Shown here piece after piece: positions 21,432 through 51,026 of a DNA stretch of 64,000 bases. Origin of the DNA: Coriobacterium glomerans PW2 (GTDB lineage Bacteria > Actinomycetota > Coriobacteriia > Coriobacteriales > Coriobacteriaceae); the NCBI RefSeq assembly GCF_000195315.1, contig NC_015389.1:496001-560000 (forward strand), in the 5' to 3' direction. The position numbers were made by a program, and so were the translations under genes. Under the pieces are notes generated by a model that searched no databases, was not told where the DNA came from, and worked only from the letters and a program-made list of their open reading frames with translations. Numbering within the stretch: position 1 is the stretch's first letter; every line of letters starts with the position of its first letter.

Positions 21432-22439
21432 TCAGGGCCTCTGGGAATCCGCACCGGCCTCGGCGATGAGCCGATCGACGCGTCGATCGTAACGCGCGAG
21501 CGCGGTCTCCCATCCCCGGTATGCGGGGTCGCCGCGATGATCGGGCAGGTTGTACCTCGAGCTCAGGATCTCGCCGAGGGAGGCGGAGACCTTCTTCGCC
21601 CCGAAGATGTTCACATGATCGCCAAAGTCTCTCGTGTCATGGCTCCAGTCCACCCCGGTGTCATGCTTCTCATCGTTGAGGTCGATGTAGTCCACATGCA
21701 GTTCATCGGCGATCTGCTGGATTCTTGCGTGCCGTGCGTCATTCATGTTCTTCATGCTCGGCACGGTCGCGATCACGAGTTCGCTTCCGTGGTCGCGGCA
21801 GATCCGAGCGATATCGGCGATGTAGAGCCGATTGATCCAGGGCAGCTCGGCATCGCTCCTGACGCGGTTCATGTCGGCCAGCGCATCGACCGGCTTAATC
21901 GAGGCGTTCAGGCGAAAGCCCTTGAGATCGTCGGTCCAGGTGTGGCGCAGCGGCCCCAAGAGGTCCTGCGGGCCCAGGCTCTTCCAGCGGTCATGGTACT
22001 CGAAGACGGGGAATACATCCTGTATCTCGCGCTTGAGACCGTCAGCCGCCGTGAAGGGATAGAAGAAGCAATCCGACTCGAGTACGACGACCCGGGGATG
22101 CTGTCGCGCGAGCGCGCGCAGCAGCAGCGTGCGCGTGTAGCACAGCTGCTGGGCCGTCGTCGAGCACGCATAGGAGGTGAATCCCCGCTCGCCCCACATC
22201 TGCAGCGGCGAGACCGCGCTGAACACCTCGCTGTCACCGATGAACACGGCGTCGATCGAGTCGTCCGGCTCACCGAGCACGCCATTCGCCCGCGCCTCGA
22301 TCATACCGAATTCGGCTTGGTTGTTCTTGGGCTCCACGATGTAGGACGCCGCCGAGAGAACGCCAGCGCCTCCGGCGAGGGCGACAACCAAAGCGAGCGC
22401 CGCGCGAGCGCCGCGCGCGCGGAATCTGAGATCGACCAT
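21432..22439 (-). CDS. SGNH-type protein of dlt-like operon (DltD analogue)
   Basis: 335 residues with one N-terminal TM helix (ARAALALVVALAGGAGVLSAA) and an outward-facing domain. AVFIGDSEVFSAVSP carries the GDS(E) block I serine of SGNH hydrolases, and the late FGDHVNIFGAKK holds a D-x-x-N/His block, so a Ser-Asp-His triad is plausible. The operon position after an MBOAT gene is that of DltD, which helps transfer D-alanine onto lipoteichoic acid. Sequence likeness to DltD itself is not obvious, and it may instead be an AlgX/AlgJ- or PatB-like acyl-transfer partner. It starts 13 bases after the MBOAT stop. Confidence 0.75.
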   Translation of the reverse strand: MVDLRFRARGARAALALVVALAGGAGVLSAASYIVEPKNNQAEFGMIEARANGVLGEPDDSIDAVFIGDSEVFSAVSPLQMWGERGFTSYACSTTAQQLCYTRTLLLRALARQHPRVVVLESDCFFYPFTAADGLKREIQDVFPVFEYHDRWKSLGPQDLLGPLRHTWTDDLKGFRLNASIKPVDALADMNRVRSDAELPWINRLYIADIARICRDHGSELVIATVPSMKNMNDARHARIQQIADELHVDYIDLNDEKHDTGVDWSHDTRDFGDHVNIFGAKKVSASLGEILSSRYNLPDHRGDPAYRGWETALARYDRRVDRLIAEAGADSQRP

Positions 22440-22451
22440 CGGTCCCTCTCC

Positions 22452-24029
22452 TTAGAATTGAGCGTACATCGGATCGACGGGCATGTATCCGGCTCCGTAG
22501 GCTCCGAACACGACGGTTGCCATGGCCAAGGCGCACAGCACCGCCCAGCGCAGCGGCACCCGTCCGCGACAGATCGTCTCGCTCGGCGATGCGCCGTGCT
22601 CGCGAGCGAGGCTCACGGCGACGATGACGATGAGCGCGCATCCGACAACGACGAAATCGGCCGCGTCCATGCCGACCGCCAGCGCCGTGCCATCAACCAG
22701 GGAGGCGAGCGAGAACCTTGTGAGGACGGCGCCGACCATCGAGAGCGCAGCCTGGGCGCTCGAAGCGCGGAACAGCATCTCTCCGGTGCAGATGACCGCG
22801 ATCGTTCGGGCGATGCGCAGCCTGCGATACCATGCCGCATCCCGATCGATGCCGGCTTTCGCGCACAGCGCGGCCACGGTGGGCTCGATCGCGCCTCCGG
22901 CGAGTATGAGCACGAAATAGTACATGCCGAACAGAACGTATTGGGTTCCCGCCCCATGCCACAGCCCGTTTCCGAGCCAGACGAAAAACAACGCGATGGC
23001 GCTCGACGCGATCGATCCGTAGACGTTGCCGAGACGGCGCCGGGCGAATCTGCCGAATCGCTTGACGGGACCGGAGAGCGAGATCGGATAGAACACGTAG
23101 TCGCGCAACCAGGTTCCGAGCGTGATATGCCAGCGCTGCCAGAACTCCGAAGCCGTTTTGGAGAGAAACGGCTGACGGAAGTTCTCGGGCATCCTCACGC
23201 CGAACATCTGTCCTGTTCCGACGACGAAATCCATCGTGCCGGAGAAGTCGCAGTACAGCTGGAACGTGTAGAGCACCGCAGCGAGAGCGATCATGCCGCC
23301 GTCAAAGGAGGCGTACCCTTCGAAGACCGGTTTCACGAACGCGTTCAGCCGATTGGCGACGACCATCCGCTTCGCCAGGCCGTACAGAATGCGCATCGAG
23401 CCCTGAAGCAGGTTCTGCGCCGTCACGTCCGAGCCCGCCCACAGCTGCTCGGCGGTATCAGCGTAGCGGCAGATCGGGCCCTCGGTCATCTCGGGGAAAA
23501 AAGCCATGAACAGGGCGAGTCGGGCCAGATTGCGATCGGCTGGAATCGTGCAGCGATAGACATCGATGAGGTAGGAGGCCGCCTGCAGCGTGTAGAACGA
23601 GATGCCGATCGGAATGCCCACCGCCGGCACCACCCAGGGCACGCGGATGCCGAGTCCGGCGACGAGCGAGCCGAAGAATCCGAGGTATTTGACGGCGATC
23701 AGCGCGCCGAAGTTCGCCGCGACGCCGAGCGCGAGCCAGAAGCGCATGCGCCGCCGGTAGGCCCTCTTGATCGCTCGTCTGTCCGCGCCCGCGCGCTTCA
23801 TCGCGGCGCGTCGGCGCCGCTGCAGCGCTCCGAGCCGCAATCCGAGTGCCCAGATCGATACGGTCGAGCCGAGAAGAAAGACGATGAGGTCGCCGCTGAT
23901 GCTCCAGAAGAACACGTAGCTCGCCACGAGCAGCACGATCCAGCGGGCACGCCGCGTGGTGAGGCGGTAGACGAGAAGGGTGGCGGGCAGAAAGATCGCG
24001 AGCACCGCCACGGAGAAATAGGATGTCAT
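22452..24029 (-). CDS. MBOAT family acyltransferase (DltB-like)
   Basis: 525-residue polytopic membrane protein. It moves acyl groups across or at the membrane onto an envelope acceptor. Many TM helices, the MBOAT central motif WHITLGTWLRDYVFYPISLSG region and the catalytic histidine in GNGLWHGAGTQYVLFG are visible. The order ACP-MBOAT-SGNH is that of dltC-dltB-dltD type systems. ATG 24029 begins MTSYFSVAVLAIF, 10 bases after the ACP stop. The frame extends upstream to 24086 inside the ACP gene, which is unlikely to be used. The ribosome-binding site is weak, so coupling to the ACP gene is probable. Confidence 0.9.
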   Translation of the reverse strand: MTSYFSVAVLAIFLPATLLVYRLTTRRARWIVLLVASYVFFWSISGDLIVFLLGSTVSIWALGLRLGALQRRRRAAMKRAGADRRAIKRAYRRRMRFWLALGVAANFGALIAVKYLGFFGSLVAGLGIRVPWVVPAVGIPIGISFYTLQAASYLIDVYRCTIPADRNLARLALFMAFFPEMTEGPICRYADTAEQLWAGSDVTAQNLLQGSMRILYGLAKRMVVANRLNAFVKPVFEGYASFDGGMIALAAVLYTFQLYCDFSGTMDFVVGTGQMFGVRMPENFRQPFLSKTASEFWQRWHITLGTWLRDYVFYPISLSGPVKRFGRFARRRLGNVYGSIASSAIALFFVWLGNGLWHGAGTQYVLFGMYYFVLILAGGAIEPTVAALCAKAGIDRDAAWYRRLRIARTIAVICTGEMLFRASSAQAALSMVGAVLTRFSLASLVDGTALAVGMDAADFVVVGCALIVIVAVSLAREHGASPSETICRGRVPLRWAVLCALAMATVVFGAYGAGYMPVDPMYAQF

Positions 24030-24039
24030 GTGTTCGGGC

Positions 24040-24273
24040 CTACAGATCCTCTTCGCGCAGTCGCTGTACCATCTTCCAGATCGCATCGAGTGAGTTGAAA
24101 TTATCGGTGACGATCTCGACGGCGGGAATCACGATGTCAAACGTGTCCTCCAGCTCTGAGACGAGCGCGATGATCGTGAGGGAGTCGAGCGTTCTGCTGT
24201 CGACGAGATCGGTGCGCCCGCGATAGTCCTGACCGGGCTTGAGTTCTTCTAGAATATCCAGTATCGCGTCCAT
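24040..24273 (-). CDS. Acyl/aminoacyl carrier protein (DltC-like)
   Basis: 77 residues, acidic, helical. The phosphopantetheine serine is in the motif LDSLTIIALVSELEDTF, typical of carrier proteins, at about residue 34. It carries the activated amino acid as a thioester. ATG 24273 has a strong GAAGGAG upstream; the longer frame to 24336 would overlap the decarboxylase end and lacks similarity. It lies between the PLP decarboxylase and the MBOAT gene, so it should accept its cargo from the adenylation enzyme at 25527-27152. Confidence 0.92.
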   Translation of the reverse strand: MDAILDILEELKPGQDYRGRTDLVDSRTLDSLTIIALVSELEDTFDIVIPAVEIVTDNFNSLDAIWKMVQRLREEDL

Positions 24274-24319
24274 GTGCTCTCCTTCTTGTCGTGACGATCG
24301 GGTTCGATCGTCAACTCCG

Positions 24320-25534
24320 TTACTGATGACGTTCAAGCTCGGATGCGAGGCCCCCCGGAGCGTTCAGCACGTCGGTTCGCATCCTCTCGCGCGCGAGCCG
24401 GGGTGCTCCATCGACGCCCAGCAGCACCACCGCCGGAAGATCCCGACTGAGGAACAGTGACATCCCCTCCGTGACGCAATAGGCCCCGGCTGTCTCGAAC
24501 GCGAGCACGCGGCCCACATCGAGCCCCTCCACGGGCAGCTGCTTGGCGAGGATGTCGTTGATCGTGCACAGCGCGCCGCAGATGTTCCACGGCTGCGCCT
24601 GCTCGGCCCCGCTGCTCCCCGCCGCTCCGAGCAGGCGCACGGGAGGCTGTCTCATCGCCATGGAATGGCCATAGTAGACGAGCTGGTGCATGCCGCCGTC
24701 CACGATGGCATAGCGCTGGGAGGCGTTGACCTTCGTGTCGACGACGCTCGTGAGATAGGTCCCGCAGGACGCCGCGATGGATCGACCGATCTCCAGCGTG
24801 ATGCGGCCGCCGAACGCCATGCCCCTCAGCATGTCCCCCAGCTCGGCGAGAAGCGCCGTCTCGTCGAACCTGTCGGCCTCGAAATAGCTGACCGGCAGAC
24901 CCGGTCCGTATTCGAGTTCGCCGGGGGCCCATCCGTGCTCATCTACCAGCTCGGCGACAAGTCGGTCCAGTCGGTCCAGCTCGCGTCCGATGCGGCGAAG
25001 GGAGGTCTTCTGGGTGCCCGAGAAGAACTGTATCCCCAAAAGCTCCACGCGCTCATCTTCGGCGAAGCGATCGACGGCGCGCAGGATCTCGGAGCGATCG
25101 AGCCCGAACTGGTTGCCGCTCGTGAGGCGCAGCAGCACCGGAGCGCGCACGCCCGCCGCGGCGGCGGCGTCGGCGATGAGCTCGAGCTGCGAGCTCGACT
25201 CGACGGTGAGCGCCGCGGGCATCGCAGGGCCGGCCAGCGCGTGCTCGACGGTGGCGGCATCCTTGTAGACCCCGGAGATGACCATATCGCTCGCGGGCGC
25301 ACCGACTGCTTCGCAGATGGCGAGCTCGCCCGGCGAGCAGACCTCGAAGCGCTCCACCGAGCCGGCGAGGCCGGGCACGATGAACGTGTTCGCCTTCACG
25401 GCGTAGCACAGATCGACGACGTCGGGCAGCGCCCGTCTCAGCGCATCCACCCGTGCCGCGAGCACCGCCTCATCGAAGATGTACAGCGGCGTGCCGAAGG
25501 CGGCCGCCAGCTCCAAAAGTCGGTCGTCACTCAT
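24320..25534 (-). CDS. Fold-type III PLP-dependent amino-acid decarboxylase
   Basis: 404 residues of the ornithine/diaminopimelate decarboxylase superfamily. The PLP lysine is K47 in CYAVKANTF; further motifs are VEVCSPGEL-like FEVCSPGELAICEAVGA, YGPGLPVSYF, LEIGRSIAASCGTYL (E-x-G-R), VDGGMHQL and CGALCTINDIL (active-site Cys). Its closest functional model may be BtrK, which decarboxylates glutamate while bound to a carrier protein in butirosin synthesis; this is inference from context and superfamily. Its start overlaps the adenylation gene stop by 8 bases (ATGAGTGA), so it is an integral member of the operon. Standard dlt operons have no such gene. A lysine- or polyamine-forming role on free substrate is the alternative. 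Confidence 0.87.
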   Translation of the reverse strand: MSDDRLLELAAAFGTPLYIFDEAVLAARVDALRRALPDVVDLCYAVKANTFIVPGLAGSVERFEVCSPGELAICEAVGAPASDMVISGVYKDAATVEHALAGPAMPAALTVESSSQLELIADAAAAAGVRAPVLLRLTSGNQFGLDRSEILRAVDRFAEDERVELLGIQFFSGTQKTSLRRIGRELDRLDRLVAELVDEHGWAPGELEYGPGLPVSYFEADRFDETALLAELGDMLRGMAFGGRITLEIGRSIAASCGTYLTSVVDTKVNASQRYAIVDGGMHQLVYYGHSMAMRQPPVRLLGAAGSSGAEQAQPWNICGALCTINDILAKQLPVEGLDVGRVLAFETAGAYCVTEGMSLFLSRDLPAVVLLGVDGAPRLARERMRTDVLNAPGGLASELERHQ

Positions 25535-27152
25535 GATCGCTCCTGTTCGATGCGTTGGCGATGCCTGCCAGGGCACCCGCCGGATCGGTGCGGCCCGCAT
25601 GGGCGCGCCCCCCGCGTTCGCGGGACCGCGCCGCGCGCCGCGCGCTGCGCGCGAACTCCAGCAGGGCTGCGCGGTCGACCTTGCCGTTCTTCGTGAGCGG
25701 CATCGTCTCCACGCGGCTGATGGAGGTCGGCACCATGGGCGCGGGCAGATACGCCGCAATCGCCTCGCGCAGCGTCTCCGCGCGGGCATCGCCCTCAAAG
25801 AACGCGTGTATCTGCTTGAAGCGGGCGTTGTAGGCGCAGCGGCACCGCTCGACGCCGTCTTGGCGCTCGAACGCCGCATCGATCTCCTCGAGTTCTATGC
25901 GGTGCCCCTGATGCTTGATCTGGTTGTCCGCTCGACCGCAGAAGTACAGCTCGCCGTCAGCCGAGCGCCGAGCCAGATCTCCGGTTCGGTAGACGATCTC
26001 GGGATAGGCGCTCTGGAGCGGGTTCTGGATGAAGGCGGTCGCGGTGCGCGCCTCGTCGCCGTAATAGCCCAGAGCGACCGAGGTCCCGCCGACATAGAGC
26101 TCACCGACCTCATCGGCGCGCTCCACGGGCCTGCCGTTCTCGTCGAGCAGCAGCACCCGCCGGTTCGCGAACGGAGCGCCGAGCGGGATGCCCTCATCGT
26201 AGGATCGCGTTCGATCGACGACGTGGTACAGGCAGTTGCACGTGATCTCCGTGGGTCCGTACAGGTTCACGAAGAGGGCCTGCGGCAGGTGGCTCTGCCA
26301 GGCGCGCAGGTGCTTGAGCGGCATGACCTCCCCGCTGAACATGACACGGCGAACGCAGGGAAGCTCAGCGTAGTCGAGCCCGTGAAGGGTGCTCACCAGG
26401 CACAGCGCCGCGGCGGCCCAGATCATCGTCGTCACGCGATGGGCGCGCAGCGCGTCTATGAGGGCGGCGGGCTCGGAGAACAGCCGCCTGGGCAGCATGA
26501 CGAGCGTGGCACCGACCGCCATCGAGCCGTAGATGTCCTTGACTGAGACGTCGAAGTCAAACGGAGCCTGATTGCCGATGATGTCATCGCAGGTGAGGTC
26601 GAAGGTCGATGTGAACTGAGTGATGAAGTCCACGAGCGCGCGATGGCTCACGACGACGCCCTTCGGCGTGCCGGTAGAACCCGATGTGAACAGAACGTAG
26701 GCCGGATCGGTGTCCAGACGCGCCGCCGCGGCGCGATCAAGCGCGCGCGGATCGAGCCGCCCGGCGAGCAACGCGCTGACGTCCTCGATCGCCTCGGCGG
26801 GAAAGGCGCTCTCCGCTGAGGGGCGCGTCCGCTCGTTCACGACGACCAGGCAATCCGAGAGCGTGGAGAACACGGCCCGGGCTCGCTCTGGGGGCGTGGT
26901 GGGATCGAGGGGGACATAGAAGCTCCCCGAGAAGAGCGCCCCGAGCATCGTCGAGAGAGCATCGATGCTCTTCTCCATGAAGACGATGACCGGGCGCGGC
27001 GCGCCGTCGCGAGCGAGCAGCGCGGAGCCGACGCGTCGGCTGCGATCGAGCAGCTCGGCGTAGGTGAGCGAGCCGTTCTCATCCACTGCGGCACGCGCGT
27101 CGGCGTGCCGCGTCGCGCTTCGCTCGAGAAATGTCAGTGCGCTTGATACCAT
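25527..27152 (-). CDS. Amino-acid adenylation enzyme (DltA-like)
   Basis: 541-residue stand-alone adenylation domain that activates an amino acid with ATP and loads it on a carrier protein. The core motifs are complete: LFTSGSTGTPKGVVVSH (A3), PFDFDVSVKD (A4, with the Asp that normally binds the alpha-amino group), NLYGPTEITCN (A5), YRTGDLARRSADGELYFCGR (A7/A8) and PLTKNGKVDR (A10, catalytic Lys). Overall architecture resembles DltA (D-alanine:carrier ligase), but the pocket residues cannot be read with confidence. The last ~50 residues are an extra Arg/Ala-rich tail. It is the first gene of a five-gene - strand operon and lies 177 bases downstream of a two-component system. Confidence 0.88.
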   Translation of the reverse strand: MVSSALTFLERSATRHADARAAVDENGSLTYAELLDRSRRVGSALLARDGAPRPVIVFMEKSIDALSTMLGALFSGSFYVPLDPTTPPERARAVFSTLSDCLVVVNERTRPSAESAFPAEAIEDVSALLAGRLDPRALDRAAAARLDTDPAYVLFTSGSTGTPKGVVVSHRALVDFITQFTSTFDLTCDDIIGNQAPFDFDVSVKDIYGSMAVGATLVMLPRRLFSEPAALIDALRAHRVTTMIWAAAALCLVSTLHGLDYAELPCVRRVMFSGEVMPLKHLRAWQSHLPQALFVNLYGPTEITCNCLYHVVDRTRSYDEGIPLGAPFANRRVLLLDENGRPVERADEVGELYVGGTSVALGYYGDEARTATAFIQNPLQSAYPEIVYRTGDLARRSADGELYFCGRADNQIKHQGHRIELEEIDAAFERQDGVERCRCAYNARFKQIHAFFEGDARAETLREAIAAYLPAPMVPTSISRVETMPLTKNGKVDRAALLEFARSARRAARSRERGGRAHAGRTDPAGALAGIANASNRSDHE

Positions 27153-27329
27153 GGGGAGCTACCGCCTAAGTCCGTACCGGTTATCATGATTGTCGTGAGG
27201 GTCATGTGAGGCAACTGAGACGTACTCATCATACGAGGCTCGTCTTAAGGCAGACTGAGTGGATCCTAAAGATTTCTTTATATGTCTCGATTCGCCTCGC
27301 TCGGCCGGCCTGCGATCCATGTGCCGTTC

Positions 27330-29006
27330 TCATCTGGATCCGACCAACCCGCTCGCCGGCCCCTCGGCTAGGGGGATCCTCACCAGGATCTCGGTGCGCC
27401 AGGGCGCGTGCGGCCGCTCGGCGATGGCGATGGTTGCCCCGTTCAGCTCCGCGCATCGTCTGGCTATCGCGAGCCCCAATCCGCATCCGCCCCCCGGCGT
27501 GCGCGCCGTGTTCTCGGTCACGAAGGGCTCGAAGGCGCGCTCCGCTATATCGGGCGGAATGCCCGCGCCGTCATCGGCGACGCTCAGCTCGGCATATGCG
27601 CCCTGCTGTCTCAGGCTCACGAGGATTTGCGTACCGGCGGGGTTGTGGGCGCACGCGTTCGCGATCAGGTTCAAGAGCATGTGCCCTATGAGCTGCGCGT
27701 CGACGAATGCCGCCATCTCGTGATCGGGCAGCGAGATATCGAGCGAGCAGGCGGACTGCTCGACCTGGGCGTCAGCCTCCTCGCCGATGCGGCGAATCAG
27801 CTCACCGAGGATCTCGCGCTTCATCTGGGGCCGGTACTCGGGGTGCTCCATCTTGGCGTAGGCGAACAGGTCGTCGATCATCTCGGCGGCGTCTACCGCC
27901 TTGTCGCTGATGGCGGAGAAGTACGCGCGCCGCCTGTCGGCCGGAACCCGATCGTCCAGAAAGGCCCGGGCGTATCCGCGTATCACGGTGAGCGGCGTCT
28001 TGAGATCGTGCGAGATGTCCGTGATGAGACGCTGGCGCTCGTCATGTGCTCGCTCGACCTGCCTCATGAGCTCGACGAAGCTGTCGTAGACCGGAACCAG
28101 CTCGGTGGGGATCCCCTCTCGGTCGACCAGAGAGACCCTCTGCGTGCGCCACGCTCCGATCGCCCGGTCGAGCGGCCGGGTCGCACGCCTGATCTGGTGG
28201 GCCATACACCATCCGGCTCCCGCGGTGGCGGCGAGAAACAGCGGGGCGGCGAAGATCCACACGCGGTTCGCCTCGGCGACGACGCGCGCGTAGGCCGCAT
28301 CGCTCACCAGCGGGGCGATGAGCACGAGGGTGCGCGCCTCGCCGCTGGCGGTTCGGTAGTCATAGCGCTCGACGGACATGCTCGTGTTGTAGATGCCCTT
28401 GATGAAGTCGAATTCCTGTTTCTTGAGGGCGCGCCGTCCCTGGAACAGCGAGCCGCCCAAGATGTTGAGGTCGCTGTCCAAGGTGCAGCTCGATTTGATG
28501 CGCTTCATGTAACCTGCATCGAAGGTGCAGCTCAGAATCGTGTAACCGTCATCTCCGTCAGCCCTTCCAGAGAATACCTCGTAGAACGTTCGCTGGTCGT
28601 AGTCGTTGATGACGGATAGCTCATCGGGACTGATCTGCCTGGCGATCCTTCTGCTCGATGCGTACAGCCTGCCGCCGTCCGCGTCGAAGATGACGATGTG
28701 ACATCGGGCCAGAGCGGTGTCCGAAAGCTCCTCGAAATCGTCGCGCGCCAGCGCGGAGCTGTGGGCGAGCACGGTGGACATAGAGGGAAACGCGTTGTCG
28801 AACATCGAATTGCGCACCGAATCGACCGCGAAGAGCAGAGCTGCGATCACGAGCGCATAGAGCAAGACGCTCGCCAGGCATCGCATGGCCAGACTCGCCT
28901 TGGCGGCACCGAGCGCCCGGGCGATCCCGCTGCGCGCCGAGCGCCAGCTCATCTGGCGGCCGCGGAGCCGCCCCCGCGGCCCTCGGGCGGCTCCGCTAGC
29001 CTTCAA
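27330..29006 (-). CDS. Two-component sensor histidine kinase
   Basis: 558 residues. TM helix 1 (LASVLLYALVIAALLFAVD) and TM helix 2 (VWIFAAPLFLAATAGAGWCM) enclose a ~190-residue extracellular sensor part. A HAMP-like linker is followed by HisKA with the phospho-acceptor histidine in DISHDLKTPLTVIRGYARAF, then HATPase_c with the N box NLIANACAHN and G boxes (DDGAGIPPDIAERAF; GGGCGLGLAIARR). Its frame overlaps the response regulator end by 11 bases; an internal ATG at 28952 is a possible alternative start. It sits just upstream of and co-oriented with the dlt-like operon, suggesting envelope-stress control, which is an inference. Confidence 0.92.
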   Translation of the reverse strand: MKASGAARGPRGRLRGRQMSWRSARSGIARALGAAKASLAMRCLASVLLYALVIAALLFAVDSVRNSMFDNAFPSMSTVLAHSSALARDDFEELSDTALARCHIVIFDADGGRLYASSRRIARQISPDELSVINDYDQRTFYEVFSGRADGDDGYTILSCTFDAGYMKRIKSSCTLDSDLNILGGSLFQGRRALKKQEFDFIKGIYNTSMSVERYDYRTASGEARTLVLIAPLVSDAAYARVVAEANRVWIFAAPLFLAATAGAGWCMAHQIRRATRPLDRAIGAWRTQRVSLVDREGIPTELVPVYDSFVELMRQVERAHDERQRLITDISHDLKTPLTVIRGYARAFLDDRVPADRRRAYFSAISDKAVDAAEMIDDLFAYAKMEHPEYRPQMKREILGELIRRIGEEADAQVEQSACSLDISLPDHEMAAFVDAQLIGHMLLNLIANACAHNPAGTQILVSLRQQGAYAELSVADDGAGIPPDIAERAFEPFVTENTARTPGGGCGLGLAIARRCAELNGATIAIAERPHAPWRTEILVRIPLAEGPASGLVGSR

Positions 29007-29700
29007 GGCGGTAACCCAGCCCGCGGACGGTCTTGATGAAGCGCGGGCTCAGCGGATCGTCCTCGAGCTTCGCTCGGATGTTCGAGATGTGGACCATGAC
29101 GCTGTTCGCCCCGCTGTCGCAGGGACGGCCGTTCACGCAGGCATAGAGCTGGGCCTTTGTGAAGATGCGGCCCGGACGTGACATGAGAGCCGCGACGATT
29201 CTCAGCTCGGCTGCGGTCAGCGCGATGGGTTCGCCGCCCTTCGCCAAGCACAGGCGCTCGGTGTCGAACTCGAGATCGCCCACCTGAATGCGGCCATCGC
29301 CTCTGCCGGAGAGGCTCTGCGTCGCGTGGCCATGGGAGCCTCCGCGCCTCAGGACCGCGCGGATGTATGCGGTGACCTCCAAGGGGTCGAACGGCTTGGT
29401 GATATAGCCGTCGGCGCCCGCATCGAGTCCGATGATCTTGTCAGCCGCCTCGGCGCGCGCGGATATGATGATGATGGGGACCTGGCTTTCGGCGCGCGCG
29501 GCCTTGATGAGGTCGTATCCGTTCATCTTGGGCATCATGATGTCAACGAGCGCGACGGCCACCTGCTCCCGACGCAGAATCTCAAGGGCATCGGCTCCGT
29601 TGCGCGCGGCGCGCACCTCGTAGCCGCTGCCTCCGAGATACAACGAGAGTATCTCGATGATGTCCCCGTCGTCCTCGGCGATGAGAACGGTGTCCGCCAC
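28996..29700 (-). CDS. OmpR/PhoB-family response regulator
   Basis: 234 residues. The receiver domain has an acidic pocket (AEDD), the phospho-acceptor D53 in ALVDIMMPK, and the conserved Lys in ITKPFDP. A winged-helix DNA-binding domain follows (LTAAELRIVAALMSRPGRIFTKAQL; HISNIRAKLEDD; KTVRGLGYRLEG). The start is GTG 29700, set by a strong GGGGAGG ribosome-binding site 8 bases upstream and by homology beginning at VADTVLIAEDD. The frame runs on to 29898 but that part has no receiver homology. It pairs with the overlapping kinase gene. Confidence 0.94.
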   Translation of the reverse strand: MADTVLIAEDDGDIIEILSLYLGGSGYEVRAARNGADALEILRREQVAVALVDIMMPKMNGYDLIKAARAESQVPIIIISARAEAADKIIGLDAGADGYITKPFDPLEVTAYIRAVLRRGGSHGHATQSLSGRGDGRIQVGDLEFDTERLCLAKGGEPIALTAAELRIVAALMSRPGRIFTKAQLYACVNGRPCDSGANSVMVHISNIRAKLEDDPLSPRFIKTVRGLGYRLEG

Positions 29701-29875
29701 AGATGTGCACCTCCCCGTACCGCTTGCGCATGCAAGAGCTGCTCTACATTCTAGTCGCCGGGCGCACCTGAGATCGGCGCATACATGTATTTGACAAGTT
29801 CCCTGCAATCGAGTGGGCCTCGCATGCGCTATCGTATGCGAGGATGGAGCCGCAGACGAAAGTTCGGAGGTCATC

Positions 29876-31132
29876 ATGAACGAGATCAAGTGTCCCAAGT
29901 GCGCGACGGTGTTCCAGGTCGACGAGAGCGGTTACGCCGCGATCGTCAAGCAGGTGCGCGATCGGGAGTTTCTGCGGGAGCTGGAGGCGCGCGAGCAGGC
30001 TCACGAGCGCGAGGAGAAGCAGGCGGCCGAGCTCGCCGCCGCCTCCGCGAAATCCGAGCTCGAGCGCATCGTGGCCGCGCGCGACGCCGAGCTCGCGCAG
30101 TTGAGGGAACGCTTGAGCGCAACGCAGACCGAGCGGCAGCTGGCCGTCGCGCAGGCCGTCGGCCGAGCTGAGCGAGCGCGCGACGAGATCGCCGCCGCAC
30201 TCGAGCGCGAGAGGATCCAGCGCACCTCGGATCTGCGCGAGGCGGCCGCCGCGCTCGAGCGCGAGCAGGCGCGGCGCGCCACCGAGATCGAGCAGGTCAA
30301 ACGCACCAGCGAGGAGATGGTGCGATTCAAGGACGAGGAGATCGAGCGCCTGCGCGACATGAGAGCGCGCCTCTCAACGAAGATGGTGGGGGAGAGCCTG
30401 GAGCAGCACTGCGAGACGGAGTTCAACCGGCTCCGCATGACCGCGTTTCCGCGAGCCTACTTCGAAAAGGACAGCGAGGTGGTCGAGGGCACGAAGGGAG
30501 ACTACATCTTCCGAGAGCTCGACGACGACGGCACCGAGATCATCTCGATCATGTTCGAGATGAAAAACGAGATCGATACCACGGCATCGAGGCATAGAAA
30601 CGAGGACTTCTTCCGCAAGCTCGATCAGGACCGAAAGAAGAAGGGCTGCGAGTACGCGATCCTGGTCAGTCTGCTCGAGCCGGACAGCGAGCTGTACAAC
30701 GCCGGCATCGTGGACGTGTCCTATCGCTTCCCCAAGATGTATGTCATCCGGCCGCAGTTCTTCATCCCGATGATCACCCTGCTGCGCAGCGCAGCGCTGG
30801 GCGCGCTGGCCGCCAAGCGCGAGCTGGCCGCCGTGCGACAGCAGAACATCGACGTCACCACATTCGAGCGGAAGGTGAATGACTTCAAGGACGGCTTCGC
30901 GAAGAACTACGAGCTCGCGAGCAGAAAGTATCGAAGCGCGATCGATGAGATCGATAAGACGATCGATCACCTGAACAAGGTGAAGGACAACCTGATGTCC
31001 TCCGATCGCAATCTGCGGTTGGCCAACGACAAGGCCGAGCGCCTCACGATACGCCGGCTCACGCGGGGCAACGAGACCATGAAGAAGAAGTTCGAGCAGG
31101 CCCGCGGCGACGAGGTCGACGCGTCCGAATAG
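29876..31132 (+). CDS. DUF2130 domain protein
   Basis: 418 residues. An N-terminal zinc-ribbon-like start (EIKCPKCATVFQVDESGYAA) leads to a long coiled coil (residues ~30-165, rich in Glu/Arg/Ala heptads). The C-terminal DUF2130 domain contains GESLEQHCETEFNRLRM, ISIMFEMKNE, DFFRKLDQDR and the EYAILVSLLEPDSELYN segment. The D...ExK-like arrangement resembles PD-(D/E)XK nucleases, but the biological role is unknown. ATG 29876 has CGGAGG upstream; the frame extension to 29813 lacks similarity. It is divergent from the two-component genes. Confidence 0.88.
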   Translation: MNEIKCPKCATVFQVDESGYAAIVKQVRDREFLRELEAREQAHEREEKQAAELAAASAKSELERIVAARDAELAQLRERLSATQTERQLAVAQAVGRAERARDEIAAALERERIQRTSDLREAAAALEREQARRATEIEQVKRTSEEMVRFKDEEIERLRDMRARLSTKMVGESLEQHCETEFNRLRMTAFPRAYFEKDSEVVEGTKGDYIFRELDDDGTEIISIMFEMKNEIDTTASRHRNEDFFRKLDQDRKKKGCEYAILVSLLEPDSELYNAGIVDVSYRFPKMYVIRPQFFIPMITLLRSAALGALAAKRELAAVRQQNIDVTTFERKVNDFKDGFAKNYELASRKYRSAIDEIDKTIDHLNKVKDNLMSSDRNLRLANDKAERLTIRRLTRGNETMKKKFEQARGDEVDASE

Positions 31133-42920: not shown

Positions 42921-43298
42921 TGGCCGTCGCGCCTAGCAGACTCGCCTGCACCAGCTGAGGGCAGCGTGCATCGCACAGTGTTTCTCCGAGTATGTTACCT
43001 TTGTGGGAGCAGAGGGGATTTGTATCAAAATCTATACCAACTTGCCCTCCGGGTAATATAGTTAATTGCCAAGGTGGTTGTTCATTTGTCGTGAATTTGT
43101 CATTTAAGCAGGTGAAACCATGATATGGCGATTTGCTCGAGTAGCGCTGAGAGGGTTTTGTTGCGCATGCGGGAACGGTTGGATGCAAATGTTAAATGTA
43201 TATAACGCCATATAAATGATACTATAACTGTTTCATTTTAGTTCAGGTATTCGATACGGTGCGCTCGCGAGGCCGTCGACAGAAGGTTGGGGAGAAGG
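42921..43298 (+). other. AT-rich leader of the first surface-protein gene
   Basis: About 380 bases without a gene; much richer in A/T than the surroundings. A promoter-like run ATATAAATGATACTAT lies at 43210-43225, 75-90 bases before the start codon. A near-copy, ATATAAATGATACTATTACTG, is at 46911-46931 before the second surface gene, suggesting a shared duplicated promoter. The end of this stretch begins the long direct repeat that covers both 5' gene ends. Confidence 0.5.
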
Positions 43299-43560
43299 AT
43301 GCACAGATCTGCACGCTACATAGCCCATAGGATCGTGGCGCCGCTTGCATGCGCCCTGCTCTTTCTGCTCATCTTGATAGTCCCCAACGTCTGGGCGGAC
43401 AGCTCCTCGGCCGCGAAGGCCGATCAGATCTCGCGAGGCGAGGAGGCCACCGTGGACCCCCATCACGACGGGGACAAGAAGAGCGGCGACGCCGACAAGA
43501 CCGACAAGTCCCACGAGGGCAAGAAGACCGACGAGGACAAGAAGGCCGACAAGGGCAACA
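43258..43560 (+). repeat. Direct repeat, copy 1 (5' end of surface gene 1)
   Basis: From TGCGCTCGCGAGG (43260) through the start codon and about the first 87 codons, this sequence matches 46961-47263 base for base as far as I can compare by eye, at an offset of 3,703. Divergence begins inside the Lys/Asp repeat, where the copies differ in repeat number. Such a repeat would allow recombination between the two genes. Confidence 0.85.
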
Positions 43561-46500
43561 ACAAGGGCGAGAAAGCCGACAAGGATAAGAAGGCCGACAA
43601 GTCCGACAAGGATAAGAAGGCCGACAAGTCCGACAAGAGCAAGAAGGCCGACGAGGACAAGAAGGCCGACAAGACCGACGGGGACACTTCAGTTGCTCCC
43701 GCGCCCGACCCCCGCGATCCGGCGCAGCGGGACACCAGCGGATCGGGTGGCGTCAATGACCGAGAAAAGAAAGATTTTACGAGCTACATCACCATCGGCG
43801 ATAAGCAGGTCGAGTGTGCGTTTCAAGAGACAATAGATAAAGATGAGGACGGCAAGATTACTGCAGACCATGTTGCAGTCTGTTCTGGCAAAGGTGGTAT
43901 AGCAGCAATCAACACGGCGCTCAGCGGGGATGTTTTCATTCCAAAAACAGTTACGGCTATTGAGGATGGCACAAGCTATACCGTCGATACGATAGGCAAC
44001 TACGCATTCTATAAATGCACGAGAATCACGAGCACTGGGCTGCTGAGCTTTAAGAGCAAGAGTCTCGAAGGCGCCACGATAAGATCGATCGGGAGCAACG
44101 CCTATTGTGGCTGTCAAAACCTTCGGTCTACCGACCTGAAGGACAGCGGGGTCGAGGAACTCGGGGAATACGCCTTCGGCAACTCGGGAGTAACGGCCAC
44201 AGGTCTCGCGGACAACGAGACGATCAAAACGCTCCCCGGCTATGCGTTCTATGGCTGCGGGAGCCTCGAAAGCACCGATCTGGAGACAAGCAAGGTGACA
44301 AAGATTGTTGGATGGTATACGTTTGCATCGTGCCCGCGGCTGAAGGATACCGGTCTCGCTGGCAACACATGTTTGGAGAGCATTGAGCAAGGCTGTTTCT
44401 CTTCGTGCATAGCCTTGACGGAAACAGGCTTGGCTAAGACGGGTAATGGTCGCGAAGGCAATAACAAGCTGACATTACTCCCTAAACAAGTTTTCGATAA
44501 CTGCCCCAAACTCACCTCTACCGGTCTCGCTGGCAACACGGCGATCGAAACTATCGGAGATGATGCGTTTGCCAGCTGCTATCAGTACGACAAAGCCACC
44601 GGGGCCGAAATCGGCCTCAAGAAGACAGGACTGGAGAATAACAGCAAGGTCACCAAAATCGGAGCTGATGCATTTCTATTCGATAAATTGCTCGAAAGCA
44701 CCGGTCTGGAGAATACCAGCTCCGAAGAGGAGGGTACCGGCTGCAAAGTCAGGTGGGTCGGAGACTACGCCTTTCAGGGTTGTTCCGCTTTGCGCTCGAC
44801 CGGATTGGCGAAAAATAGAACGGTTGAGACCCTCGGAAAATACGCATTTGCTCAAACAGGCGTCACTTCGACGGGCTTGGGGCAGAATCCATACGACCCC
44901 GACGACCCCAAAGACTACAGGCATATAACGGAGCTCGAGAAGGCTGTGTTCTCAGGGTGCGGAAGCTTGACCGACACCGGTTTGGCCACCAACACGCATA
45001 TAAAGACGATCGGAGAGAGCGCGTTTGCAGGTTGTTATTCTACGAACTTGAAGACCTCGACCGGACTCGCGACGACCGGACTCGCGACGAATCACACCGT
45101 CGAGACGATCGGCAAGCAGGCTTTTCTCGGCGATGTGCTTTTAGGTACAGTCAACAAAGATGATAAAAATGAGAACCCTGGCGATCTGGTGCTCAACGGC
45201 TGCGAGGGGAGGCTCAGCATCGGGGAGCAGGCGTTCTCGGGGGCACCGAAATATACATCAGTCTACATCCTGTGCGAAAAAGAAAACTTGAAAATAGGCA
45301 AAAGGGCATTCGACTACGATATCGATAGTCGAAAGACGTCGCAGTCATACATCCCAAATCTCTACGTGTCAGCCTCATGGAAGGACACTACAAACTACAG
45401 CTTCGGTGAGGGGCAAGACAAATCATCGTATAGCGTCGATGCTTATGCAGGCTTCCCGAGGCTCACCATCATGAATCCCCTCTACGGGATGCACGCGGTG
45501 CGAATCTCGAAGACGTCCGACGTCGAGCTCTCATACTCCTACAACCTGAACAGCAACGTGAGCGTGAGCTACCGCGATGCCGGTAACGCGGTCGTCGTCG
45601 ACTCGTTCAACGTCAAGCTGGATCCTAAAAAAAACCGTGGTTCAGGGAAGCATACAATCGTCTATGATTCCTCCAGCAAGACCAACCTTCCCTTTGGCGC
45701 GACCACTATCGTGGTGACCCTGACCCTCCCCAATGACGGGCACATCACCTACCCGGCTGGGGCCAAGTCGCATTCTTACAATGGCGACACCGCAGGATCT
45801 CACGAACGTGACCTCGACCCTGTGACCTTCGAGATCAACTTCGACGGGAACGGCGGTAAGACCGACGATGGAAAAAAAGCAGACTCCGTCACGAAGACAG
45901 AAGTCCCTTATGGGAACAGAAAGATCGACGATGTGCTCGGCGTCGAGTTCAAGCGAGGTGATGATGAGTTCTTGGACTGGATTGAGACCGCGGGCCAAAG
46001 CGAGAACCGGCTCTGGCCGGCCCAAGCTGAGGTGGCCGGTATGTGCAACATCCAAGACGGATCGGTGACACTCAAGGCCCGATGGAAATCCGAGTCGGCC
46101 GTCGGTCTGAGAGTGCTGAGCAAGAAGAAGACGGATGACCCGCTGGGCAAGGTGAGCTATGTCATCAGCAATTCGTCGGACGAGAGAGACGCTCCAACTG
46201 GCCTGGACGACCTCTACACCGACGATAAAGAGATCAACCGGGTCACATGGCCGCTTGTATCGGACGAAGAAAGCGGCCTCACCCCCACCGTCTACTGGCT
46301 CGACCCCAAGGCGGACGGGCCCAAAACCGAGGACGAATCCAGAACCTACTATCTGCACGTCGCCAGTGTGCCCGCAGGCTACGATGCGCCCTCCGAGGCC
46401 ACTAAAATCGTCGTGAGCAGCAATGGCGTCAAGGTCAACGATGAGGATGCGACTATCACAGACGATCGCATCTTGGATCTGTCCATCTCATACGGGAAGG

Positions 46501-46634
46501 CACCCAACCTGCCGGGCACGGGATGGTTCACCGGCGCTGCGACCCTGGCCTTGGCGGAGGCGGGCGCCTCGATAGCCGTGCTGTCGATCTTCGCGGTGAC
46601 GATGTGGCTCATGAGACGCAACAGCACCTGCTGA
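43299..46634 (+). CDS. BspA-like leucine-rich-repeat surface protein 1 (LPGTG)
   Basis: 1,111-residue wall-anchored protein. Signal peptide: RIVAPLACALLFLLILIVPNVWA. Residues ~45-130 are Lys/Asp repeats (KADKSDKSKK pattern), likely a charged spacer. A central region of about a dozen repeats follows the pattern 'TGLxxNxxIxxIGxxAFxxC', i.e. LRR_5/BspA-type repeats in which TGL replaces the usual xxIP. Near the C-terminus is a Listeria-Bacteroides/InlB-B-type domain (FEINFDGNGGKT...LKARWK) and a SpaA-like segment. LPGTG (Leu ~1071) then precedes a TM helix and a basic tail, so sortase anchoring is expected. ATG 43299 follows GGGAGAAGG; the TTG at 43287 is rejected. GC of the repeat region is lower than the rest. 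Confidence 0.9.
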   Translation: MHRSARYIAHRIVAPLACALLFLLILIVPNVWADSSSAAKADQISRGEEATVDPHHDGDKKSGDADKTDKSHEGKKTDEDKKADKGNNKGEKADKDKKADKSDKDKKADKSDKSKKADEDKKADKTDGDTSVAPAPDPRDPAQRDTSGSGGVNDREKKDFTSYITIGDKQVECAFQETIDKDEDGKITADHVAVCSGKGGIAAINTALSGDVFIPKTVTAIEDGTSYTVDTIGNYAFYKCTRITSTGLLSFKSKSLEGATIRSIGSNAYCGCQNLRSTDLKDSGVEELGEYAFGNSGVTATGLADNETIKTLPGYAFYGCGSLESTDLETSKVTKIVGWYTFASCPRLKDTGLAGNTCLESIEQGCFSSCIALTETGLAKTGNGREGNNKLTLLPKQVFDNCPKLTSTGLAGNTAIETIGDDAFASCYQYDKATGAEIGLKKTGLENNSKVTKIGADAFLFDKLLESTGLENTSSEEEGTGCKVRWVGDYAFQGCSALRSTGLAKNRTVETLGKYAFAQTGVTSTGLGQNPYDPDDPKDYRHITELEKAVFSGCGSLTDTGLATNTHIKTIGESAFAGCYSTNLKTSTGLATTGLATNHTVETIGKQAFLGDVLLGTVNKDDKNENPGDLVLNGCEGRLSIGEQAFSGAPKYTSVYILCEKENLKIGKRAFDYDIDSRKTSQSYIPNLYVSASWKDTTNYSFGEGQDKSSYSVDAYAGFPRLTIMNPLYGMHAVRISKTSDVELSYSYNLNSNVSVSYRDAGNAVVVDSFNVKLDPKKNRGSGKHTIVYDSSSKTNLPFGATTIVVTLTLPNDGHITYPAGAKSHSYNGDTAGSHERDLDPVTFEINFDGNGGKTDDGKKADSVTKTEVPYGNRKIDDVLGVEFKRGDDEFLDWIETAGQSENRLWPAQAEVAGMCNIQDGSVTLKARWKSESAVGLRVLSKKKTDDPLGKVSYVISNSSDERDAPTGLDDLYTDDKEINRVTWPLVSDEESGLTPTVYWLDPKADGPKTEDESRTYYLHVASVPAGYDAPSEATKIVVSSNGVKVNDEDATITDDRILDLSISYGKAPNLPGTGWFTGAATLALAEAGASIAVLSIFAVTMWLMRRNSTC

Positions 46635-47001
46635 GAGCCGAGGCGCGCACCCCGATAGTTCTCAATAATCGGAGGATCAGCGCTCCGGAGCCGACGGAAG
46701 GGAGGATGCGGTCGATGGCCCCGGTGCCGTTGGCGCAGCCCGTCTCGAGGCCATCAGAAGAGAAGACCTCGGGGCGATTGAAACCGCAATGGTGCCACCG
46801 GACGGAAAGGGCGTCCGGTCTCGAGGAATCGATGTGCGCAAGCAATGCCGTGATGATTATGGTGGGTTTGTGCGAACGTCCAACTATGAATAGAATATAT
46901 GTGCATGGCTATATAAATGATACTATTACTGTTCCATTGTATATTCGCTATCTCGAATACGGTGCGCTCGCGAGGCCGTCGACAGAAGGTTGGGGAGAAG
47001 G
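46635..47001 (+). other. Region between the two surface-protein genes
   Basis: About 370 bases, no gene. It carries the copy-2 promoter-like run at 46911-46931 and the beginning of the repeated 5' sequence from 46961. The first ~200 bases have a few GC-rich inverted segments (GACCTCGGGG; CCGGACGG / CCGTCCGG around 46799-46820) but no clear terminator with a T-tract. Confidence 0.4.
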
Positions 47002-47263
47002 ATGCACAGATCTGCACGCTACATAGCCCATAGGATCGTGGCGCCGCTTGCATGCGCCCTGCTCTTTCTGCTCATCTTGATAGTCCCCAACGTCTGGGCG
47101 GACAGCTCCTCGGCCGCGAAGGCCGATCAGATCTCGCGAGGCGAGGAGGCCACCGTGGACCCCCATCACGACGGGGACAAGAAGAGCGGCGACGCCGACA
47201 AGACCGACAAGTCCCACGAGGGCAAGAAGACCGACGAGGACAAGAAGGCCGACAAGGGCAACA
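46961..47263 (+). repeat. Direct repeat, copy 2 (5' end of surface gene 2)
   Basis: The matching partner of 43258-43560. Identity covers the ribosome-binding site, the signal peptide and the start of the Lys/Asp spacer; downstream the two genes drift apart to clearly related but different repeats. The conserved 5' end next to diverged bodies points to a recent exchange or selection on expression and secretion signals. Confidence 0.85.
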
Positions 47264-50200
47264 AGGGCGACAAGGGCGAGAAAGCCGACAAGGATAAGAA
47301 GGCCGACAAGTCAGACAAGAGCAAGAAGACCGACGAGGGCAAGAAGGCCGACAAGGATAAGAGGTCTGACAAGTCCGACAAGAGCAAGAAGGCCGACGGG
47401 GACGCCTCGGCTGCTCCCGTGCCCGCCCCCCGCGATCCGGCGCAGCGGGACACCAGCGGATCGAGTGGCGTCGCAGCCGGAAGAATCTTCACGAGCTACA
47501 TCACCGTCGGCGAGAACGACCACGTCCCGTGTACGTTCCAAGTGTCGGAAGATGGCCAGGCTCTGCTTGGCGGAGGTACTGATCCGGCGATCGACGCCGG
47601 GCTCACGGGGAAGGTCTTCATCCCGGCGACCGTCATAGATTCGGCGTGGGGAGACGCAAGCTACAGCATCAAACAAATCAACAAACGCGCATTCGATGGA
47701 TGCTCGATCACGAGCACCGGGCTGCTGAGCTATAAGAATCCCGGTGGTGCCACGATAACATCGATCGGGGAAGATGCGTATCGGGGCTGCGCGAACCTTA
47801 CAGACACGGACCTGAAGGATAGCATGGTCGAGGAGATCGGGGCTTATGCCTTCAGCGAATCGGGAATAACGACCACGGGTCTGGCGCGCGACACGAGAAT
47901 CACAAAGCTTCCCGACTACATATTCAATAACTGCAGAAACCTTGAGAAGACCGATCTGGAGCTCAGCGCCGTGCAGTTGTTGGGAAATTACGCATTCGCA
48001 GGCTGCACCTCTTTGAAGAATACCGGTCTCGCGAACAATGAAGTGTTGATAAACAAGGACCCTGAAGAAGATGACAAAACTAAAATAGCTACGGGCTGCT
48101 TCGCCGCGTGCGCCGCATTGCAGGACACGGGCTTGGCGCACAACGACATGCTGAAAGTAATTCCCGACCACGCTTTCGCGAATTGTTACCGCCTCAGCTC
48201 CACCGGTCTCGCGAGCAACACGACGATCACAGATATCGGACCCAGTGCGTTTTACACCTGCTGTGACAAAGACGCAAAAACCGGGCTCAAGAAGACCGGA
48301 CTCGAGAATAACAGCACCGTCATCAATATCGGAGATACTGCGTTCGCGTACGATAAATTGCTTGAAAGCACCGGTCTGGAGAATCCCGATTGCGCTGTCA
48401 CGACGGTCGGAGAGTATGCCTTTCAGTTCTGCTCCGGTTTGAGCTCGACCGGATTGGAGAACAACAGCAAGGTCGAGACCCTCGGAAGATGGGCCTTTGG
48501 TAATTCAGGCGTGAAGTCGACGGGCTTGGGCAACCACACGACAGGCGTAACGGAGCTCGAGAGCAACGTGTTCTATGGCTGCGGAAAATTGACCGCCACC
48601 GGCTTGGAAACCAACAGTGCTATAACGACGATCAAAACGAGCGCGTTTGCAAAGTGTATATGTTTGACCTCGACCGGGCTCGAAACGAACAATACTGTCA
48701 AGACGATCGGTGACAGCGCGTTTTCAGATTGCTTCGATACCACTAATAAACGCGGCTTGACCTCGACGGGGCTCGCGACGAACAAGACTGTCGAGAAGAT
48801 CGGCAAGCAGGCTTTTTACAACGACCCATACTTGGGGTCAGAGGGCAACGCTGATGAGAACAAAGGCGATCTGGTGCTCAACGGCTGCGAAGGGAAGCTC
48901 AGCATCGGGGATCAGGCATTCTCGGCGGCGTCCGCTGCAAATGAATCGGCCTATAAAGCGGTCTACATCCTGTGCGAAAAAGAAAAATTGAAGATCGGCA
49001 AAAAAGCATTCGACTACTTCAACACCACATTATCGCGAAAATACATCCCCAGTCTCTACGTGCAGGGCTCATGGGAGGGCACCGAAAGCTACATCTTTGG
49101 CCGGAAGGATCCAAACAAATCTGATAACGACGAATCAATTTATGAGGTCACACCGCATACAAAAAAAGCCGAGAAGCTCATCATCATGAATCCGCTCTGC
49201 GGGATGGCCGCAGAGCGAACCGCGAACACGTCCAAAGCCCTGCTCTCATACTCCTACAACAGAAGCGGCAACGTCAAGCTGAGCGACACCGGTGGCGATG
49301 ATCTCGGCTCGTTTGTTGCCGAACCGGGCCCCAAACCGGACCTCGCCAATCATGACATCGACCCTGAGGACACCGGGGTCACAGTCGATCCCCATTCCTT
49401 CTTCTGCGCGACCGTTATCGAGGCGACCTTCACCGACCCCGATGGCTGGCCCATCACCTATCCGAAGAAGACTTCGGACGGCAAGGGAGTGTCCCCTCAT
49501 CCATACAACGCCGTCGGCAACGAAGACGATAATTACACGACGCTCACGCGCAAGTGTAACCTCGACCCTGTGACCTTCAATGTCACCTTCGACGGGAACG
49601 GCGGTAGGTCCCGCGACGGAAAAGACACTGTCACGAAGACGCGCGTGTCTTACGGAGGCACCACGTTCCACGATCTCGTCGGTGACTTCAAGCGAGAAAA
49701 CTACGAGTTTCTAGCTTGGGCCAAGAGCGCTGACGAGCACTGGTATGCCGACGACAAGGTGGAAGTGTGCAACATCCAAGACGGATCGGTGACGCTCAAG
49801 GCCCGATGGAAATCCGAGGCGGCCGTCGGTCTGAGAGTGCTGAGCAAGAAGAAGGATAGCACGGACCCACTGGGCGGCGTGAGCTATGTCATCACCGATT
49901 CGGAGGACAGCGACGAGTCGCACTATGTAACCGACCTCTACACTAACGAAGATGAGACCAAAAAGGTCGATTGGCCGCTCACATCGGGTGGAGACGGTCT
50001 CATCACCACCTACTGGCTAAAACCGCTTGATATCAAGGCGGGCGAATCCGAGGACGACGCCAGAACCTACTATCTGCACGTGGTCGGCGTGCCCGCGGGC
50101 TACGATGCGCCTTCCGAGCCCACTGTAATCGTCGTGAGCAGTGCCGGGGTCACCGTCAACGGTGCGACCCCAAGTATCGAAGGCGACGCCGTGAAAGTGA

Positions 50201-50352: not shown

Positions 50353-51026
50353 GAGCTGGGTCGGCCTCCCGCGCACCCGACGGACCCGCGCATGGCCCCG
50401 GAACCCCCCCCCCTTCCGCCTGACGCCCCCGCCCGCCCGCAGGCGGGGGGGGGGGCGGAACGGGCGTCCGTTTACGGGGATTCGAGCGGAAATATGTTGC
50501 CATATGACGACATCGGCGATATTCTAGATATGGATGGTTTGTGAGAGAGACATATTTTAGAGGTTTATCTATATAATGACATTTATGAAATACCATTAAG
50601 AGGATCTTAAGTATTGATATGTGTTCCGACCAGCGGTATTTCATCGCTCAGATTTTGATATTTTGCTTGCTCTGGTTCGGTTTTCAGGTGTTCAATGGGG
50701 GTTGGGAGAAATGACCGGCTATGCTTAGCAGCGAAAACGCATCAATTCGTGTTTCGATCTCTTCGGTTGAGCGGCTAGGCGAGCGTTTCTCGGGCCCCGG
50801 TGAACTTCTGAGATGCATCAGCGATCATCTCGCATGCGCGACATCGGTCGCATCGGGGGTTCGGTGCCATGCCGTCTCAAAATAAGGGTTATCCTTGAAC
50901 AGCAAACACCGTTTCGTTGCTCCCGGTCGGGCGAGGGCGCACGAACGTCGTGAGGAAATAAACGTGTGCAGGCTAGAGCATGAGCGGCAATTCGGCCGCC
51001 TGAGGACACACAAGAAGGAGAGCATT
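50353..51026 (+). other. Long leader of the pilin gene with GC inverted repeat
   Basis: About 670 bases. Just after the second surface gene are a C10 run (50404-50413) and a G11 run (50445-50455), together with arms TTCCGCC / GGCGGAA-like, forming a very GC-rich inverted structure that may end transcription. After 50500 the DNA becomes AT-rich: a TATAAT-like box at 50572-50577 is the best promoter candidate, far upstream of the pilin start at 51027. No gene is supported. Confidence 0.45.

Follow-up and report, generated by a model that had tools for sequence, protein, structure and literature searches.

The window analysed here, a stretch of 64,000 nt from the forward strand of Coriobacterium glomerans PW2 (NC_015389.1, GCF_000195315.1, positions 496,001-560,000), harbours at 21432-27152 a five-gene operon predicted to participate in the aminoacylation of the cell envelope (coordinates count from window position 1). 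The operon lies on the - strand and encodes an adenylation enzyme (A), a fold-type-III pyridoxal phosphate (PLP) decarboxylase, an acyl carrier protein (ACP), an MBOAT acyltransferase, and an SGNH-fold protein (Table 1). The adenylation and decarboxylase genes overlap by 8 bases (25527-25534), and the remaining intergenic gaps measure, in operon order, 46, 10, and 12 bases. Gene calls and family searches agree with an initial annotation of this DNA on the five genes, their strand, positions, and overlap. Its five protein types were also confirmed, four of them by Pfam and NCBIfam and the SGNH protein by structure and motifs. The adenylation enzyme reached 352 bits with TIGR01733 (cut-off 317), and serine S31 of the carrier is conserved in at least 95% of 92 homologues. 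Sigma-70-like promoter and Rfam scans gave no match, and terminator-like matches fall within genes.

Table 1. Genes of the operon, the terminal MBOAT motif and the adjacent regulatory genes, in window coordinates.
Feature	Coordinates	Strand	Remarks
Adenylation enzyme, gene 1, 541 aa	25527..27152	-	AMP-binding PF00501, TIGR01733 above cut-off; predicted to charge the carrier with an acidic amino acid through the side-chain carboxyl
Fold-type-III PLP decarboxylase, 404 aa	24320..25534	-	PF02784/PF00278 above cut-off; predicted carrier-bound substrate
Carrier protein (ACP), 77 aa	24040..24273	-	PP-binding PF00550 above cut-off; phosphopantetheine serine S31 (LDSLT)
MBOAT acyltransferase, 525 aa	22452..24029	-	PF03062 above cut-off; catalytic-type histidines H301, H358
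MBOAT C-terminal acyl-shuttle motif PMYAQF (Y522) and stop codon	22452..22472	-	Two extra transmembrane helices precede the motif
SGNH-fold transferase, 335 aa	21432..22439	-	One N-terminal membrane helix; S70 in GDSE, H275 in GDHxN
Sensor histidine kinase, likely regulator, directly upstream	27330..29006	-	PF00512 and PF02518
OmpR-type response regulator, likely regulator	28996..29898	-	PF00072 and PF00486; overlaps the kinase gene

Conservation of the five genes

The operon was compared with 61 related genomes, 37 of them from the family of C. glomerans, and a decarboxylase profile scan of bacterial genomes provided the 80 nearest loci, from Coriobacteriia and Clostridia. All five genes are complete in 77 of these 80 loci, and the other three end at contig edges. 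The co-occurrence across Coriobacteriia that the initial annotation had proposed to look for is thus present, and the decarboxylase, whose separation from the other four genes would have spoken against its reading, was never found apart from them in these loci. Two Eggerthellaceae loci have an altered gene order, and one locus carries the carrier gene on the opposite strand. Within the family, a close decarboxylase and a close MBOAT occur in the identical 13 of 37 genomes, in the order A-decarboxylase-ACP-MBOAT-SGNH wherever the contig permits.

In a class-wide sample of Coriobacteriia the decarboxylase was present in 35 of the 250 genomes, which belong to 20 of the 110 genera. Ten loci of this sample, inspected in detail, contain all five genes in two architectures: regulator-kinase-A-decarboxylase-ACP-MBOAT-SGNH with related orders, and MBOAT-SGNH-A-decarboxylase-ACP, whose MBOAT-SGNH pair is more distantly related. 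Across 88 loci, the five proteins show correlated pairwise distances (Spearman 0.40-0.81). With the same genes in the same order in dozens of genomes from two phyla, the arrangement is far beyond chance and constitutes a real functional unit.

Several loci depart from this pattern. In G042, one contig holds the A-decarboxylase-ACP trio and another the MBOAT-SGNH pair. The decarboxylase of G022 (L036 7995-8573) has only 192 aa, its frame being lost after about residue 148, next to A, ACP, MBOAT, and SGNH genes that look intact; this is either an assembly error or decay. In G110 (L160 6239-7780) the adenylation gene is split into two open reading frames (ORFs), by a frameshift or an error, and the other four genes are intact. 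Some operons possess two to four tandem SGNH genes (L087 13049-17038; L026 4035-6198; L125; L162), and in L127 and L162 one A-decarboxylase-ACP trio feeds two MBOAT-SGNH pairs. The tandem genes and doubled pairs suggest several acceptors or positions.

Decarboxylase and adenylation enzyme

The residues usual for such decarboxylases, K47, E248, and C323, are invariant among the homologues, and because this holds for the Glu and the Cys, a racemase reading of the fold-III enzyme is not favoured. The family reads CTxND and has no IRPxxY; the true LysA of the same genomes reads CENND and IRPAMY, the motifs that bind diaminopimelate (DAP). The CTxxD motif is found in BtrK (as CTPED) and in other carrier-linked decarboxylases, and a GTQ motif is also common to BtrK and the operon enzyme. 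BtrK, of the BtrI/BtrK system of butirosin synthesis, is likewise a fold-III enzyme with a carrier-bound substrate and is the nearest solved carrier-acting decarboxylase found, although it is 26% identical to the operon decarboxylase and serves an antibiotic pathway. Judged by these motifs, the operon enzyme belongs to the carrier-acting BtrK-like class and not to LysA.

The home genome has no other LysA, and the decarboxylase resembles LysA in hidden Markov model (HMM) searches, so that it might be the LysA of this genome, or might act on a carrier-bound DAP cargo and turn it into lysyl, being placed in the operon to supply lysine. This is very improbable. The lysA model gave 172 bits against a cut-off of 298, placing the enzyme outside LysA, CExND and IRPxxY are missing, and the home genome gave no DapB match over the cut-off. 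An additional LysA-like gene is present in at least six relatives (G001, G004, G006, G015, G026, G029), and it was read as a true LysA in G004, G006, G015, and G029. The LysA reading was rejected on the score, the motifs, and these separate genes.

AMP-binding, MBOAT, and LysA-like proteins are each encoded once in the complete home genome, in every case within the operon. Since the operon holds the only such genes and no DapB exceeded the cut-off, a canonical dlt system is absent and the DAP route apparently so; without a LysA besides the operon enzyme, the peptidoglycan probably uses a diamino acid other than DAP. Five family relatives lacking the system, and G054 from another family, possess an ordinary dlt-like set (A, a 400-residue MBOAT, ACP) with no decarboxylase. 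Both MBOAT types occur together in none of the 37 family genomes, a count that is uncorrected for relatedness and suggestive only.

Pocket positions of the adenylation enzyme were assigned by alignment to a segment of GrsA, which served for numbering only. The pocket residues are D201, V202, K205, I244, M271, S273, L297, C305, and N306 (code D-V-K-I-M-S-L-C-N), and D201, V202, K205, W245, S273, C305, N306, and C307 are invariant or nearly so among about 93 homologues, with the invariant K205 facing the side-chain pocket. The DltA code of relatives, D-L-F/Y-V-V/L-C-T-V-A and mostly DLFVLCTVA, is different. Leu198 and Cys269, which shape the D-Ala site of DltA (PMC11253843), are replaced by V202 and S273, and the DltA models gave 267-272 bits against cut-offs of 476-560, which leaves the enzyme outside the DltA family.

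A variant of D-alanylation, in which D-Ala or a similar small amino acid is loaded and the decarboxylase only supplies or removes free amino acid, would agree with the Dlt-like layout of ligase, carrier, MBOAT, and SGNH genes and with the matches to DltA models. Nevertheless, it is highly unlikely, as these matches lie far under the cut-offs, both D-Ala residues are exchanged, a lysine faces the side chain, and a decarboxylase with carrier-acting motifs accompanies the system in all 80 loci. The plain Dlt reading was rejected on the pocket, the MBOAT type, and the dlt operons without decarboxylase in the family.

Other features of the pocket resemble enzymes that load the side-chain carboxyl. 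VinN loads methyl-aspartate via the side-chain carboxyl, with Asp230, a bulkier residue at 231, and Ser299 being important, and the residue that binds the alpha-carboxylate in VinN, BolO, and AfcQ is Arg331. The operon enzyme retains the equivalents of Asp230 (the Asp235-type residue) and Ser299 as D201 and S273. V202 sits at position 236 and matches the A236V change, which is present in all beta-amino-acid-selective TycA variants (PMC11253843). The assumption that the Asp235-type residue is missing from adenylation enzymes for beta-amino acids proved wrong, since VinN keeps it (PMC11253843). The AF2 (AlphaFold) model of the protein is an A domain, and structure comparison did not separate DltA-like from beta-amino-type enzymes. 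The beta13-beta14 loop, which in the VinN type is one residue shorter than in A domains for alpha-amino acids, showed no clear shortening in alignments made without the VinN sequence. A basic residue at position 239 is a feature of side-chain-activating domains of microcystin and ACV synthetases; no supporting paper was found, and it was not used here. An acidic amino acid activated at its side chain would fit this pocket, but is not proven by it: Asp and Ser are kept and position 236 is Val, yet the Arg331 equivalent is Asn.

The same machine could load Glu by its gamma-carboxyl and decarboxylate it to gamma-aminobutyrate (GABA), as BtrK does, and the motifs common to BtrK, together with the lysine at pocket position 239, which could hold a distal carboxylate, would suit this cargo. 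GABA thioesters and esters, however, cyclise to pyrrolidinone. In butirosin synthesis a further glutamylation shields the amine, and an enzyme for this is missing from the operon. S273 and V202 moreover match the beta-amino pattern. Because of this cyclisation and the VinN-like residues, a beta-alanyl group from Asp, with roughly even prospects, is favoured over GABA from Glu, which is possible but unlikely.

Predicted transfer across the membrane

In PatA and DltX, the tyrosine of a C-terminal FXYXXF motif is the acyl shuttle between the MBOAT and the SGNH protein (PMC12148441). The operon MBOAT possesses two C-terminal membrane helices absent from DltB and ends in PMYAQF, with P replacing the first F of the motif. 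The terminal YxxF is present in 88 of 91 MBOAT homologues, and H301 and H358 are both conserved in at least 96% of them. The shuttle motif is absent from the DltB of relatives and reads FIYFRF in PatA-like MBOATs. With the DltB model the operon MBOAT gave 152 of 375 bits and falls outside the DltB type; with the His pair, the shuttle-like terminus, the two extra transmembrane (TM) helices, and the SGNH partner, it has the features of the PatAB type. No DltX-like microprotein was detected, as small ORFs upstream of A (27153-27329) have neither a membrane helix nor FXYXXF, and the gaps inside the operon measure only 10-46 bases. Because it carries its own shuttle tyrosine, which DltB lacks, the MBOAT is by its sequence a carrier-fed PatAB-like transferase with a fused shuttle, and an acyl-Tyr step is predicted. 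In other families of Coriobacteriia (L143, L144, L145, L146, L148, L151), PatA-like MBOATs end in FIYFRF or FIYYRF, and no A, decarboxylase, or carrier gene was detected near them.

For the SGNH protein, Pfam and NCBIfam yielded no family at E 0.001-0.01 or better and only a weak match to Lipase_GDSL_2. A PDB search with its AlphaFold model (pLDDT 93.7) retrieved TesA/GDSL hydrolases and DltD with E values of 1e-5 to 1e-4, and nearly all of the 89 homologues retain GDSE and DxGDHxN. These matches and motifs make the fold assignment right.

The initial annotation described a dlt-like operon with one added gene and held that dltABCD needs only a ligase, a carrier, an MBOAT, and DltD. The latter has to be corrected, as canonical dlt also needs DltX, and the description does not fit because the MBOAT is PatA-like with a fused acyl shuttle. 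The operon has in common with Dlt (DltA-B-C-D-X) an AMP ligase, a small carrier, an MBOAT, an SGNH protein, and, as predicted here, an aminoacyl ester on an envelope polymer. It differs in the decarboxylase, the non-D-Ala pocket, a shuttle fused to the MBOAT instead of the DltX microprotein, and an SGNH protein that HMM searches do not place in the DltD family. With PatA/PatB of peptidoglycan O-acetylation and other MBOAT-SGNH systems it shares the two additional helices, the terminal YxxF, and the SGNH partner; in contrast, PatA uses acetyl-CoA, and the operon has a dedicated adenylation enzyme, carrier, and decarboxylase. Other MBOAT-SGNH pathways are said to have no carrier protein (PMC12148441), and with its carrier the operon thus joins a donor side of the Dlt type with a transfer side of the PatA type.

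Stand-alone adenylation enzymes with a PLP decarboxylase and a carrier are known from VinN/VinO/VinL and AfcQ/AfcP/AfcK. VinO decarboxylates carrier-bound methyl-aspartate (PMC11284099), and AfcQ, AfcK, and AfcP turn L-Asp into beta-alanyl-carrier in vitro, direct activation of beta-alanine being excluded (PMC12186527). The side-chain loading and on-carrier decarboxylation of an acidic amino acid in these trios are predicted for the operon too, but the trios feed polyketide or lipopeptide synthesis, whereas the operon product would go to a membrane transferase. A search for closer trios (plasmids) found only distant ones, below 33% identity. The exosortase-A-associated TIGR03098/TIGR03099 also belong to a ligase-decarboxylase-carrier gene trio, which is tied to cell-surface polysaccharide clusters; their ligase, however, is an acyl-CoA-synthetase-type enzyme that lacks the amino-acid motif, no MBOAT-SGNH pair was seen with them, and both models score far below cut-off on the operon proteins.

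Such trios are otherwise of natural-product type (vicenistatin, AFC-BC11, bolagladin), and the product could accordingly be a secreted small molecule or a modified lipid head group instead of a decorated envelope polymer. This is doubtful, given that an MBOAT with a fused acyl shuttle and an SGNH partner are together the hallmark of systems that acylate envelope polymers (PMC12148441), and that the operon has no condensation domain or polyketide synthase (PKS) and neighbours a two-component system. The home genome encodes a single sulfatase-family membrane protein (G000:C1:710394-712790; L150 2395-4791), of 798 aa and LtaS/MdoB-like layout. It could be a candidate glycerol-phosphate polymer synthase, with a possible link to the acceptor.

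Predicted pathway and its regulation

We consider it likely that the operon performs a carrier-fed MBOAT-SGNH aminoacylation in which an acidic amino acid is transferred in decarboxylated form, most likely as beta-alanyl. This reading builds on the parts and their joint conservation, on a pocket unlike that of DltA, on decarboxylase motifs of the carrier type, and on the shuttle fused to the MBOAT; the cargo and the acceptor are inferred. As the pocket and homology of the adenylation enzyme suggest, this enzyme would activate an acidic amino acid, L-Asp being the most likely, at its side-chain carboxyl and load it on the phosphopantetheine of the carrier. The PLP decarboxylase, following the AfcP and VinO precedents, would remove the alpha-carboxyl on the carrier and leave an omega-aminoacyl thioester, most likely beta-alanyl. 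As the conserved residues and the DltB/DltX and PatA precedents suggest, the MBOAT would carry this group across the membrane onto the tyrosine of PMYAQF. Ser70 of the SGNH protein may then accept the group and transfer it to the hydroxyl groups of a glycopolymer outside the cell, which would gain positive charge.

Several observations weigh against this pathway. In sequence searches, the adenylation enzyme stands about equally near to nonribosomal peptide synthetase (NRPS) domains, DltA, and beta-amino enzymes. Arg331 of VinN corresponds to Asn306, so that Lys205, elsewhere in the pocket, would need to take over, and Asp as cargo is not proven. The proposal of the initial annotation, a side-chain-activated Asp or Glu decarboxylated on the carrier, gains support from the BtrK-like motifs, the non-DltA pocket with its lysine, and the VinN/VinO and AfcQ/AfcP precedents, and is weakened by this missing arginine. 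As the 80 loci were picked by decarboxylase similarity, they demonstrate that the decarboxylase is retained together with the other four genes but not the converse, and the frequency of A-carrier-MBOAT-SGNH sets without it lies outside this sample. The acceptor polymer was sought by clustering of neighbouring genes, which yielded nothing beyond a generic ABC ATPase and the two-component system.

Homologues of the kinase or response regulator of the window (at least 200 bits to either) make up 42 of 439 genes neighbouring the operon, compared with 0 of 190 further downstream, and are present in 26 of 65 testable loci, many in number and from both phyla. The conserved two-component system is thus often part of the locus and its likely regulator, and probably tunes its expression. 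By analogy with dlt control, a response to envelope stress is suggested. Elsewhere in the window, two adjacent large BspA-type leucine-rich-repeat surface proteins are encoded at 43287-46634 and 46990-50352, followed by a SpaA-like-domain protein at 50895-52637.

The open-access papers searched, with many journals outside this search, contain no earlier description of the five-gene combination. Surface charge of Gram-positive bacteria is usually discussed in terms of D-alanylation and MprF. The chances seem balanced that gut Actinomycetota and Clostridia widely use envelope esters of beta-alanyl or another decarboxylated omega-amino group in place of D-alanylation. The system would unite a carrier thioester donor and a fused acyl-tyrosine shuttle, mechanisms kept separate in the literature. 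If the prediction is true, a broad set of gut bacteria (Coriobacteriia, and many Clostridia including Ruminococcus bromii) would bear a different cationic envelope group, produced by reactions hitherto described in antibiotic pathways. Beta-alanyl or omega-amino esters should be chemically more stable than D-alanyl esters, and the system would account for how genomes without dlt tune their surface charge against host and bacterial peptides.

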